From assembly GCA_903872425.1 (NCBI GenBank), contig CAIQKQ010000019.1, positions 1-39,884 on the forward strand: a DNA stretch of 39,884 nt, in the 5' to 3' direction. The stretch is from an uncultured Opitutia bacterium (lineage in GTDB: Bacteria; Verrucomicrobiota; Verrucomicrobiia; Opitutales; Opitutaceae). The translations under genes and the position numbers were made by a program. Of this stretch, positions 1 to 35,823 are shown piece after piece (positions within the stretch are counted from its first letter, which is position 1; each line of letters opens with the position of its first letter). The notes beneath the pieces were generated by a model, which saw only the letters and a list, made by a program, of their open reading frames with translations, searched no databases and had not been told where the DNA came from.

Positions 1-78
1 CCGGCGCGTTTACTGACGCCGTCGATGTCCTGCGGCGGGCGCGGCGTGTGAGTCCAGCGCATGGGTGGCATTTCCGAG

Positions 79-165
79 GTAGGGCGCGTGACCTTAACGC
101 GCCGGTTGGGCTCAGCGCTCCGGTGGGCCGAGTCACAGCGGCGGATTAGGGATAATCCGCCCTAC
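79..165. repeat. Inverted pair of GTAG-headed hairpins (REP/REPIN-like element)
   Basis: + strand 79-103 GTAG-GGCGCGT-GACCTTA-ACGCGCC; - strand 165-140 GTAG-GGCGGATTA-TCCC-TAATCCGCC; same head and layout, different but self-complementary stems. Confidence 0.75.
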
Positions 166-174
166 TTTTGAAAA

Positions 175-2775
175 TTATTCCGAAGCCTTGCTGGCGCCGG
201 TCCACTCGTATTTCGGGGCGATATCTTCGTGGGCCTCGACATGCTTCCGGTCGCCCTTGTGCCACCAGTAGAACACCTGGGCGGCGACAAAGATGGCCGA
301 GAATGTCGAGGTGACGATACCGACGAGGAAGGTGAACGCGATGTCCTTGAGTACGCCACCACCGAAGAGGTAGAGAGCGAGCGCCGCAAGGAAGGTGGTC
401 GTCGCCGTCTTTATGGTGCGGGCGAATACCTTCCGGATGGCGTCGTTGATTACGTCCTTAAGCTTCCCGTTGGGGTTGAGTTTGAGCTCTTCCCGGATAC
501 GGTCGAAGACGACGACGGTCTCATTGATCGAGTAACCGGCGATACAGAGGATGGCGGCGACCATCGGGGCGTTGAACTGGTGACCGGTGAGCACAAACAC
601 CCCGATCGTCATCAAGATATCGTGCAACGTGGAGACCATGGCGCCGACGCCGAAGCCGAACTCAAAGCGAAACGCGATGTAGAGCAGAATAACCGCCATT
701 GAGATGGCGACGGCTTTGAGCGCGTTCCACAAAATTTCCGAGCCGATGGTTTTTCCGAGGTGACTGACGCTGACACTTTTTTCATCAAGTCCAGCCGAGG
801 GGAAGGCCGCCTTGAGCGCAGTGAGGACGCCCGCGCCCTTATCTTCTGGCAGCTCAATCTTAAAGGTTTCCTTGCCGCCGCCGAGCGGGCTGGCGGTGGT
901 GATGATCATGTCAGCCACGCCAGCCGTCTTGACGACCTCGCGAATTTTGGACTCGGCCGGTGGCTGGGCGAACGTCAGGGCGACCTCGTCGCCACCCTTG
1001 AAGTCGCGGCCGAAGATTGCGCTGCCTTGGTAAACCACGCTGCCGAAGCCGAGGACCACGAGCAGGCCGGATGCGATAAAGGCGGGCTTGCCGAAACGAA
1101 CAAAGTCCCAGCGCGCGTCCTTCAGCAACGGCAGCATAACAAATTTCTTCACCGCGCCGGACTCCAGTGCCAGCTCCATAATAAGGTGGCCGGTGATAAG
1201 GACGGAGAACAGGGTCGAGCATACGCCAATGGCAAGTGTCACGCCGAAGCCCTTGATCGGGCCGGTACCATACCCGATCATCACGGCGCAGATAATAAGC
1301 TGCACCAAATGGGCGTCGAGGATGGTGGTGAGCGCCTTGACGAAACCGCTCTGATTGGACGTGGCGAGGGACTTGCCGACGGCCAACTCCTCGCGCATAC
1401 GCTCAAAGATCAGAATATTCGCGTCAACCGCCATGCCGATGGTGAGCACGATGCCAGCGAGACTAGGGAGTGTGAGCGTCGCACCAATGTTGGCCATGAT
1501 GCCGAGAATCAGGAGGACGTTGACCAGCAGGCTGAGCAACGCAACGACGCCGCCAAACGTGTAGACCACGAGCATGAACGCCGCCACGAGGCTAACGGCA
1601 ATGACGGTGGAAGTTTTGCCGCTGGCGATGGCATCCGCCGCGAGCGAAGGCCCGACGGCAGTCTGGTCGAGTACGGCGAGCTCAGCGTTGAGCGGGTTGT
1701 TGAGCACGCTTTTGAGATCGAAGGCGGCGCGTTGGTCGAAGTTGCCGCTGATGGATGCAACGCCACCGGTGATGGGGCCACGGATGACGGGGGCGGAATC
1801 AAGCTTGCCGTCGAGCACGATGGCGAGGTTGCGGCCGACGTTGGCCGTGGTCAGCGCGCCAAACTCCTTGGCCCCCTCGTCGGTGAGCTTGAGGCTAATC
1901 TCGTAGCCAACGAGCTGGCCGGAGACGACGTCAGCCCGCGCCACCCGATCGCCGGTCATCTCTGCTTTTTGTTTCACAACATAATAGGCGGTCGGGCTGG
2001 TGCCGTTTTCATCCTCTTTGGCGAGTACCTCATAACCCGGCGGAATGTCTTCGGCTGGAGGCGGCTGCAGCTGCGGCTGGATGCGGTCGGAGACGAGGCG
2101 AAACTCGAGCTTAGCGGGCCGGATGACGGTAGCGATGAGGTCAGGGTTGTCGTTGAGGTTCTCACCGGGGAGCTGGACCTCGATGCGATTATCGCCGACG
2201 GCGCGGATCAGCGGTTCGGTGACGCCGAGGCCGTTGATCCGCTGGTCAATGATGCGAATGGCAGCCGTAAGCGTCTCAGGCGGAACCTTGCCGCCGTCTT
2301 TGGCGCGGATCTCGAGAGTGACGGCGACGCCGCCGTTGAGATCAAGACCGAGCTGCACACGGCGCTTGGCCTGGCGCTGAAGCTCGCCTAGGAGCAGGGT
2401 GTTGCGTTTATCAATGTTCTTGAGCGAAGAACCAAGGTCGATGTCGGGGAAAAACGCCGAGAGATCGAGCTGGCGCTCATGGCCAAGCTGGCGGAGTCCG
2501 ACGAGCACACTGGGCGTAGCCTTCGGGTCGGCCTTGACGCGGGCACGGGCGTCAGCGAGCAGGGTGGCGAAGAGAATTCTTTGGCCGGCGGCCGGCGTGG
2601 CCGAAATACCAGGCTGCGCAGCAGGCGCAGCGATGGACGGAGTTGCACGGGCGGTGAGAAACTCATCAAAGTTGAGGTTTTTCAGCGGGGTCAGCTCATA
2701 GATGGCCCAAGCCATGAGGACGAGGGTGAGGAAGATTTTCCAAGCGTTGCGCTGCCAGAGGTTGCTGTTGGGCAT
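175..2775 (-). CDS. secDF: Fused protein translocase subunit SecDF
   Basis: 866 aa; SecD-type half (RVQLGLDLNGGVAVTLE) followed by SecF-type half (GRDFKGGDEV...GYSINETVVVFDRIRE); yajC immediately upstream. Confidence 0.96.
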   Translation of the reverse strand: MPNSNLWQRNAWKIFLTLVLMAWAIYELTPLKNLNFDEFLTARATPSIAAPAAQPGISATPAAGQRILFATLLADARARVKADPKATPSVLVGLRQLGHERQLDLSAFFPDIDLGSSLKNIDKRNTLLLGELQRQAKRRVQLGLDLNGGVAVTLEIRAKDGGKVPPETLTAAIRIIDQRINGLGVTEPLIRAVGDNRIEVQLPGENLNDNPDLIATVIRPAKLEFRLVSDRIQPQLQPPPAEDIPPGYEVLAKEDENGTSPTAYYVVKQKAEMTGDRVARADVVSGQLVGYEISLKLTDEGAKEFGALTTANVGRNLAIVLDGKLDSAPVIRGPITGGVASISGNFDQRAAFDLKSVLNNPLNAELAVLDQTAVGPSLAADAIASGKTSTVIAVSLVAAFMLVVYTFGGVVALLSLLVNVLLILGIMANIGATLTLPSLAGIVLTIGMAVDANILIFERMREELAVGKSLATSNQSGFVKALTTILDAHLVQLIICAVMIGYGTGPIKGFGVTLAIGVCSTLFSVLITGHLIMELALESGAVKKFVMLPLLKDARWDFVRFGKPAFIASGLLVVLGFGSVVYQGSAIFGRDFKGGDEVALTFAQPPAESKIREVVKTAGVADMIITTASPLGGGKETFKIELPEDKGAGVLTALKAAFPSAGLDEKSVSVSHLGKTIGSEILWNALKAVAISMAVILLYIAFRFEFGFGVGAMVSTLHDILMTIGVFVLTGHQFNAPMVAAILCIAGYSINETVVVFDRIREELKLNPNGKLKDVINDAIRKVFARTIKTATTTFLAALALYLFGGGVLKDIAFTFLVGIVTSTFSAIFVAAQVFYWWHKGDRKHVEAHEDIAPKYEWTGASKASE

Positions 2776-33955: not shown

Positions 33956-35823
33956 GGCGACGCCCTCCACGCGTCCATTGCGGTGATCAGGCGCTGCGCG
34001 TGAGCGTCGCTGAACGTGCGCTTAAGCGAGAGGCGCAGGCGGCTGGTGCCGGCGGGCACCGTCGGCGGGCGCACCGCGCCGACGAGGATGTTTTTTTCGC
34101 GCAATGCCGCGGCAAGGGACATCGCGTCGTCTGCGCCGCCGAGTTTCACCGGCACGATGGGCGAGTCGCCGTCGGGTGCATCCCAGCCGGCGGCGCGCAA
34201 GCGGGTGCGCAGGTCGCGCGAGAGGGCGTGCCAGCGCGGTTGGGCGGAGGCCAGCGCACGCACACGGGCGAGCGCCGCCGATGCAGCGGCGACGTTGAGG
34301 GGTGAGAGTGCGGTCGAGTAAATAAATTCGCCGGCGAAATTTACTAAGTAATCACGCACGGTGGCGTCGCGGAACAGTGTATACGCCCCGCCGGACGCGA
34401 GCGTCTTGCCGAACGTGCCGATGAGCACATCCACCGCATCGGCAATCCCGGCGGCGCACACGAGGCCAGAGCCCTCGGGTCCGTGCCAGCCGAGCGCATG
34501 AGCTTCGTCCACGATGAGAACAAAATTGTGGCGGCGTTTCAGCTCGGCGAGACGCGCGAGGTCGGGATAGTCGCCATCCATGCTGAAAACGCTTTCGGTG
34601 ATGACGAAAACCGTGGGGGTGGAGCGTGCCGGAAAATCACGCTCCACCTCAGATTCGGCGGATGGACGGGAGGGCGCGAATTTTTTTTCGAGCAACTTCT
34701 CCAGGTGAGTGAGATCCAGGTGCTCGTAGCGCTGGAGGCGCGCGCCGCTCCGGAGCAGGCCAGCAATCATACTATGGTGGATAAGCCGGTCGGCCAGCAC
34801 AAGATCGCCGCGGCGCGGGAGCAGACCGAGCACGGCAGAATTAGCCGCATAGCCGCTGCTCCAGAGCAGGCCATGCGCAAAACCGTGCCACGCACATAGT
34901 TCCGCCGTGAGCGCGGCATGTGGCGACTGCCATCCGGTGATGAGCGGCGAAGCGGCGGCAGATGTGCCATAAGTACGGGCGGCACTAGCCACAGCGTCGG
35001 CCAACGCAGGATCGTGGGCCAGCGCGAGGTAATCGTTGTCGGCGAGGTTGAGCGTGATGGCGGCGGACGCGGAGATTCGCAGTTCACGGATGAGACCATC
35101 GCGGACACGTTCGGCGAGGGCGTGTTGGAGGCGCGAGAGTAATGATGAGGTAGAGCGCGCCTGCCCCGGCGCGCTTGGCTCGGTTATCGAAGGCACATCA
35201 GATCCGGACAGCTCCATCTTCAAGTCAGCCAGCACCGACCACAGCGGCACACCGGCAGCGGACAGCTCGCTGCGATTCGACGCAGCGACAGTCGGGTCGG
35301 CGGAGAAAAATTCGTTGAGCCACACTCCGGCGTTTAAACAGAGCGTGGCGGCGCGAGCGTGGGCAAGGCGGGCTTGGTTGATCGCGCCGAGGCGATCGGG
35401 CACGACGATCACGACAGCGTCGGGCGCGAGGGTGGCGGCAAAATCGGCCCAGTCGCGCGACTCCGCGTCGAGCGGCGTAGCGATGCCTCCCGCGCCTTCG
35501 AGGATGCGCCATTCGCACGGCGGCAGCGCGCGCAACGCGGCTAGCAATGCAATGAAAGAAATTTCTCGGCCCACAGCGCGGGCGGCGGTACTCGGCGCGA
35601 GCGGTGCAGCGAAGGACGCCAGCGTGAACACCTCAAGGCTCGTGGTCACTAGGCCCACGAGCCGTCGCGCCGACGTGGCGTCGCCCTCAGCGGGCAGACC
35701 AGTCTCGACGAGCTTCACGATTTGTCCACGCGTGCCATCCGCCGCAAGCTGGCGGGCGAGCGCGGCCACGACGTGGGTTTTGCCCACACCGGTGTCCGAG
35801 CCTGTGACGAGCACCGTGCGCAT
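33952..35823 (-). CDS. Fused dethiobiotin synthetase - 8-amino-7-oxononanoate synthase (BioD-BioF)
   Basis: N-terminal MRTVLVTGSDTGVGKTHVVAALARQL...ILEGAGGIATPLD (BioD); C-terminal LADNDYLALAHDP...VDEAHALGWHGPEGSG...GTFGKTLASGGAY (BioF). Confidence 0.93.
   Translation of the reverse strand: MRTVLVTGSDTGVGKTHVVAALARQLAADGTRGQIVKLVETGLPAEGDATSARRLVGLVTTSLEVFTLASFAAPLAPSTAARAVGREISFIALLAALRALPPCEWRILEGAGGIATPLDAESRDWADFAATLAPDAVVIVVPDRLGAINQARLAHARAATLCLNAGVWLNEFFSADPTVAASNRSELSAAGVPLWSVLADLKMELSGSDVPSITEPSAPGQARSTSSLLSRLQHALAERVRDGLIRELRISASAAITLNLADNDYLALAHDPALADAVASAARTYGTSAAASPLITGWQSPHAALTAELCAWHGFAHGLLWSSGYAANSAVLGLLPRRGDLVLADRLIHHSMIAGLLRSGARLQRYEHLDLTHLEKLLEKKFAPSRPSAESEVERDFPARSTPTVFVITESVFSMDGDYPDLARLAELKRRHNFVLIVDEAHALGWHGPEGSGLVCAAGIADAVDVLIGTFGKTLASGGAYTLFRDATVRDYLVNFAGEFIYSTALSPLNVAAASAALARVRALASAQPRWHALSRDLRTRLRAAGWDAPDGDSPIVPVKLGGADDAMSLAAALREKNILVGAVRPPTVPAGTSRLRLSLKRTFSDAHAQRLITAMDAWRASP

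Follow-up and report, generated by a model that had tools for sequence, protein, structure and literature searches.

REPtrons, in which a RAYT transposase gene is flanked by two inverted palindromes headed by GT(A/G)G, were described by Nunvar et al. in 2010 (PMC2817692). In the family Opitutaceae, GTAG repeats of Opitutus terrae were published in 2013 (Di Nocera et al., PMC3733652); that paper reports several REP families per genome with a GTAG or GTGG head and stems of 6–9 bp, and heterodimers whose arms have different stems, for which it offers no explanation. The REPINs of Pseudomonas fluorescens SBW25 are intergenic inverted doublets of ∼80–90 bp with a variable spacer, and their arms are typically identical and form one long hairpin (Bertels and Rainey 2011, PMC3116915). 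The Y/Z BIMEs of E. coli are heteromeric doublets associated with TnpA_REP (structure 4er8), their palindromes require a bulge, and biochemical work has identified the GTAG head and the loop as recognition determinants (PMC8266576).

We analyzed a stretch of 39,884 nucleotides (the window) from a metagenome-assembled genome (MAG) of Opitutaceae, the host genome, in which two hairpins lie between secDF and recJ. The features at this end of the window are as follows.

Positions 1 to 62, minus strand: 5' end of recJ (start at ∼62), truncated by the contig end; its orthologue in relatives matches the RecJ model TIGR00644.
Positions 79 to 103, plus strand: REP arm 1, GTAG-GGCGCGT-GACCTTA-ACGCGCC, with a GTAG head, a 7-bp stem, and a 7-nt loop (from the sequence).
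Positions 104 to 139, no strand: spacer separating arm 1 and arm 2.
Positions 140 to 165, minus strand: REP arm 2, GTAG-GGCGGATTA-TCCC-TAATCCGCC, with a GTAG head, a 9-bp stem, and a TCCC loop (from the sequence).
Positions 175 to 2775, minus strand: secDF, identified with the NCBIfam SecDF, SecD, and SecF models.

An earlier sequence-only reading had placed two GTAG-headed hairpins at 79–103 on the plus strand and 165–140 on the minus strand, just past the secDF stop. Both the hairpins and their position are confirmed, as the profile models put the stop codon of secDF 9 nt from arm 2. The two genes are co-directional, ∼20 recJ codons are within the window, and most of the 112-nt gap between them is taken up by the pair. 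The GTAG tetranucleotide is directly 5' of each short palindrome, both stems pair perfectly, and the arms are inverted relative to each other with their heads outward. None of 200 dinucleotide shuffles of either arm folds as well as the arm itself (z scores of −4.0 for arm 1 and −4.9 for arm 2). The GCC shared by the two arms, which had been read as a tail, is present but is the closing half of the stem.

The pair consists of REP elements of the GTAG superfamily arranged as an inverted heterodimer. It shares with the O. terrae repeats (PMC3733652) the bacterial family, the head, the stem length, the unequal stems of paired arms, and the presence of several REP families in one genome, but belongs to another genus, in which it is present once and most likely as a relic. 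It differs from a REPtron (PMC2817692) in being a doublet alone, without a RAYT gene. Like the SBW25 REPINs (PMC3116915) it is an intergenic inverted doublet of that size class, and the spacers of related doublets vary in length and sequence; however, its stems differ, and the minimum free energy (MFE) structure of either strand contains two separate hairpins and no single long one. Because the MFE keeps the arms apart and lacks the single long hairpin to which REPINs owe their name, we class the pair as a GTAG REP heterodimer and not as a strict REPIN; the inverted pair described in the sequence-only reading stands as a same-family doublet. The doublet resembles the E. coli system (PMC8266576; 4er8) in its heteromeric make-up and in the homologous transposase of the family, whereas the palindromes are different and the stems pair without a bulge, as those of RAYT group 3 do.

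The subfamily to which the pair belongs was recognized from the pattern GTAGN{6,8}TATCC[C/T]TA (GTAG-GGC-N4-TATCC[C/T]TA...; the TATCC subfamily), whose one occurrence in the host genome is arm 2. The same pattern has 26 matches in G007, a genome of another Opitutaceae genus (control, 0), 28 in genome G048 of a further related genus (control, 1), and fewer in other genera; the earlier impression that such hairpins are common in Opitutaceae was correct. G007 carries a TATCC doublet at its own secDF-recJ junction, as the window does. Arm 2 is identical to the GGCGGATTATCCCTAATCCGCC arm of that doublet, arm 1 is at an edit distance of 2 from its GGCGCGTTATCCTTAACGCGCC arm, and the order of the arms is opposite in the two genomes. 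From these sequence comparisons, both arms were assigned to the TATCC subfamily as a same-family inverted doublet, with arm 2 intact and arm 1 putatively derived from the GGCGCGTTATCCTTAACGCGCC arm by wear that damaged its loop. Assignment of arm 1 to the family with a TTGACC loop is less likely, as its edit distance to arms of that family is 4–6 (4 to the arm at the same site in the same-genus genome G001).

Based on the above results and those that follow, we consider, with a probability of roughly 0.9, that the pair is a non-autonomous GTAG REP doublet that was deposited by a RAYT between secDF and recJ and is now an orphan relic. The explanations weighed against this one concern the junction itself, the transposases of the host genome, and hairpins in general.

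Across Opitutaceae, the secDF-recJ junction (window 63–174; loci L228–L288 in relatives) repeatedly carries REP pairs, and these belong to different families. A GTRG-headed pair is found there in 6/30 genomes, compared with 2–5 pairs in ∼491 other junctions (Fisher p = 6e-7 to 8e-6), a comparison that excludes the window, takes the other junctions from the same stretches with their number estimated at one per kb, and treats as independent genomes that are not. At this site G007 has a TATCC pair, and the pairs of G038, G022, and G019 are worn but TATCC-like (for G019, as judged by eye); G044 and G042 have GTGG types, as do the same-genus genomes G001 and G002. Where a clear pair is present, the gap is 67–112 bp in most genomes and 268 bp in G009, which has a multi-copy GTGG cluster, whereas in ten relatives from ten other genera it is 9–25 bp and contains no GTRG hairpin. 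The gaps are thus short and hairpin-free or longer with hairpins, but neither an excision nor a target-site duplication was seen, and the pattern is consistent with either recurrent insertion or an old insertion with turnover.

This recurrence, together with the position of the hairpins 3–12 nt past the secDF stop in many relatives, is what would be expected if they formed a conserved RNA element of the operon, in which they shield secDF mRNA at its 3' end or act as an attenuator of recJ, a role for which the REP would have been retained at this place. We regard this as unlikely, since ten relatives do without any such hairpin, the REP families at the site differ between genomes, and no U-tract follows the hairpins on the secDF strand, the sole terminator-like match being on the opposite strand. 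Such a role would in any case be compatible with a REP origin of the hairpins.

The deposited-relic reading draws further on the GTAG hairpins and transposases found elsewhere in the host genome. A 600-kb sample of this genome has 26 perfect hairpins preceded by GTAG where 2.9 are expected, a 9-fold enrichment that serves as an upper guide because the sample includes contigs in which pattern matches had been found beforehand; the sole tetranucleotide with a higher enrichment in this sample is TAGG, which overlaps GTAG. A pattern search of the whole host genome recovered some two dozen genuine hairpins, which fall into several classes, among them class A (GTAGGGCGGGGTCGCCGAACCCCGCC), class B (GTAGGGCGGGACCGCTGGGCCCGCC), and class C (GTAGCCGGGGTCGCTGACCCCGG), and GTGG-headed repeats with TTGACC gave 11 matches (control, 0). 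These other GTAG and GTGG classes are dispersed in the host genome, in which the TATCC subfamily is represented by the window pair. Class A has over a dozen copies (contigs C203, C264, C186, and others), and a RAYT likely to be its cognate was seen in the same-genus genome G001 alone (L193). A long minus-strand ORF contains another GTAG-headed hairpin, GTAGAGCGCGCCTGCCCCGGCGCGCT (window positions 35150–35175), which we set aside as either a chance occurrence or an intragenic REP.

The search for a RAYT gene in the host genome, which the sequence-only reading had proposed, found two, both tied to other REP families. RAYT1 (contig C180, L031:1411–1887) matches NF047646 with an E value of 4e-20 and 72 bits, just below the curated cut-off of 80; a class-B hairpin precedes the gene, and an inverted, degenerate class-B copy, judged by eye, lies over the 3' end of the gene. 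Serine replaces the catalytic tyrosine in this protein (HSIRMNPV), while tyrosine is found in 103/105 aligned RAYTs and the two histidines in all of them; from this residue, RAYT1 is probably inactive or affected by a one-base assembly error. RAYT2 (contig C288; NF047646 45.7 bits, below the cut-off) has the HUH motif and the tyrosine and is surrounded by GTGG/TTGACC hairpins. At three class-B RAYT loci (L087, L099, and L176), the RAYT reading frame runs into the 3' REP, which supplies the codons for the final residues of the protein, GGPSGPALP.

With two RAYT genes in the genome, one of them with its catalytic residues in place, the pair could be a recent insertion that is still mobile and served by a resident enzyme. 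We judge this very improbable, as RAYT1 has a class-B REP and a serine in place of the tyrosine, RAYT2 has a GTGG/TTGACC REP, and the TATCC subfamily is single-copy in this genome, so that no movement within it is visible. No cognate RAYT for the TATCC subfamily was found in the host genome, an Opitutaceae MAG that is 85% complete and in 304 contigs, and such a gene may therefore be absent only from the assembly. The single copy, the lack of a cognate RAYT among the genes found, and the association of both resident RAYTs with other families together make an orphan relic the most likely state of the pair.

Transposases of the cognate type are present in relatives. In both G007 and G048, inverted copies of GTAGGGCGCGTTATCC[C/T]TAACGCGCC directly adjoin a RAYT gene on its two sides, which is the REPtron arrangement (PMC2817692); the prediction of a RAYT flanked by the same hairpins is therefore borne out in these two genomes, not in the host. 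Both enzymes are intact (HUH motif and tyrosine) and exceed the NF047646 cut-off (94.6 and 83.2 bits, respectively), and the closest solved structure to this type is 4er8, TnpA_REP. RAYTs are present in 28/38 related genomes, and at 69 of 106 RAYT loci GTAG hairpins are found on both sides within 300 bp, compared with 1–3 loci for control tetramers. The 80 named RAYT relatives that were collected are nearly all from Verrucomicrobiota, those of Opitutaceae being closest.

Intrinsic terminators of the ordinary kind, or GC-rich hairpins that arose by chance, can hardly account for the pair, even though hairpins are common in this GC-rich genome and one terminator-like match covers arm 2, because GTAG is enriched before hairpins, identical arms occur in other genera (controls, 0–1) and also flank RAYT genes, and a terminator for secDF is ruled out by the plus-strand orientation of that sole match. 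The earlier identification of the pair as GTAG-headed REPs thus holds, by its head, its hairpins, the enrichment, and the copies that flank RAYTs.

In the mechanism that we propose for the relic, a RAYT (TnpA_REP, a Y1 HUH single-strand transposase) would recognize the GTAG head and hairpin loop on single-stranded DNA, cleave nearby, and deposit the doublet between secDF and recJ. By analogy with published biochemistry on related enzymes, we infer that the doublet was moved by a RAYT of the G007/G048 type. The host genome would since have lost this enzyme, leaving a relic with arm 2 intact, the loop of arm 1 damaged, and the subfamily otherwise absent.

We also compared arms and enzymes across the RAYT loci. 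On a tree of 71 RAYTs, built by a quick method and with many weak forks, the loop class requires 19 changes (minimum of 300 shuffles, 31) and the outer stem 15 (shuffle minimum, 24), while the middle stem requires 38 (shuffle minimum, 40). In these sequence comparisons, the head, outer stem, and loop appear to track the enzyme and the middle stem is much freer, and the agreement between loop class and tree is in line with the recognition of GTAG and loop in biochemical work (PMC8266576). The covariation of stems claimed in the sequence-only reading, which two copies could not demonstrate, becomes sound when these many relatives are compared.

Arms with the same loop on the same strand have identical stems in 160/187 comparisons, and those on opposite strands have different stems in 102/138, counts that are not independent. 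In close inverted pairs at RAYT loci, the stems differ in 67/78, where 52.5 are expected from within-locus draws and 0/2000 draws were as high; they differ in 11 of the 12 dispersed TATCC doublets (permutation p = 0.01) and in the window pair as well. When the window pair is made homomeric in silico, its separate arms (−25.5 kcal/mol) give way to pairing between the arms (−42 to −45 kcal/mol). The idea that the stem difference abolishes such pairing is only partly right, as the MFE structure retains arm-arm pairing in 28/39 natural heteromeric pairs; since 38–39 of the 39 do so when made homomeric, divergence of the stems weakens the pairing without abolishing it.

As a tentative proposal, which we rate as possible yet somewhat against the odds, the Verrucomicrobiota REP doublet would combine a shared loop with stems kept apart by selection, such that arm-arm pairing (cruciform formation) is weakened while both arms remain RAYT substrates, and the secDF-recJ junction would be a place where unrelated REP families repeatedly land or are retained. 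The difference between paired stems around a common loop and the recurrence of REPs at secDF-recJ may both be new.

The window pair is new as a local example of a kind already known from O. terrae (PMC3733652). The element itself is ordinary, and the collected RAYT and REP material is more useful: dozens of RAYTs with their flanking REPs from one phylum constitute a natural covariation experiment on enzyme recognition, and they provide numbers for the heterodimer preference that Di Nocera et al. described. The secDF-recJ junction, in turn, provides a natural case for asking whether REPs are retained through a role in operon expression.
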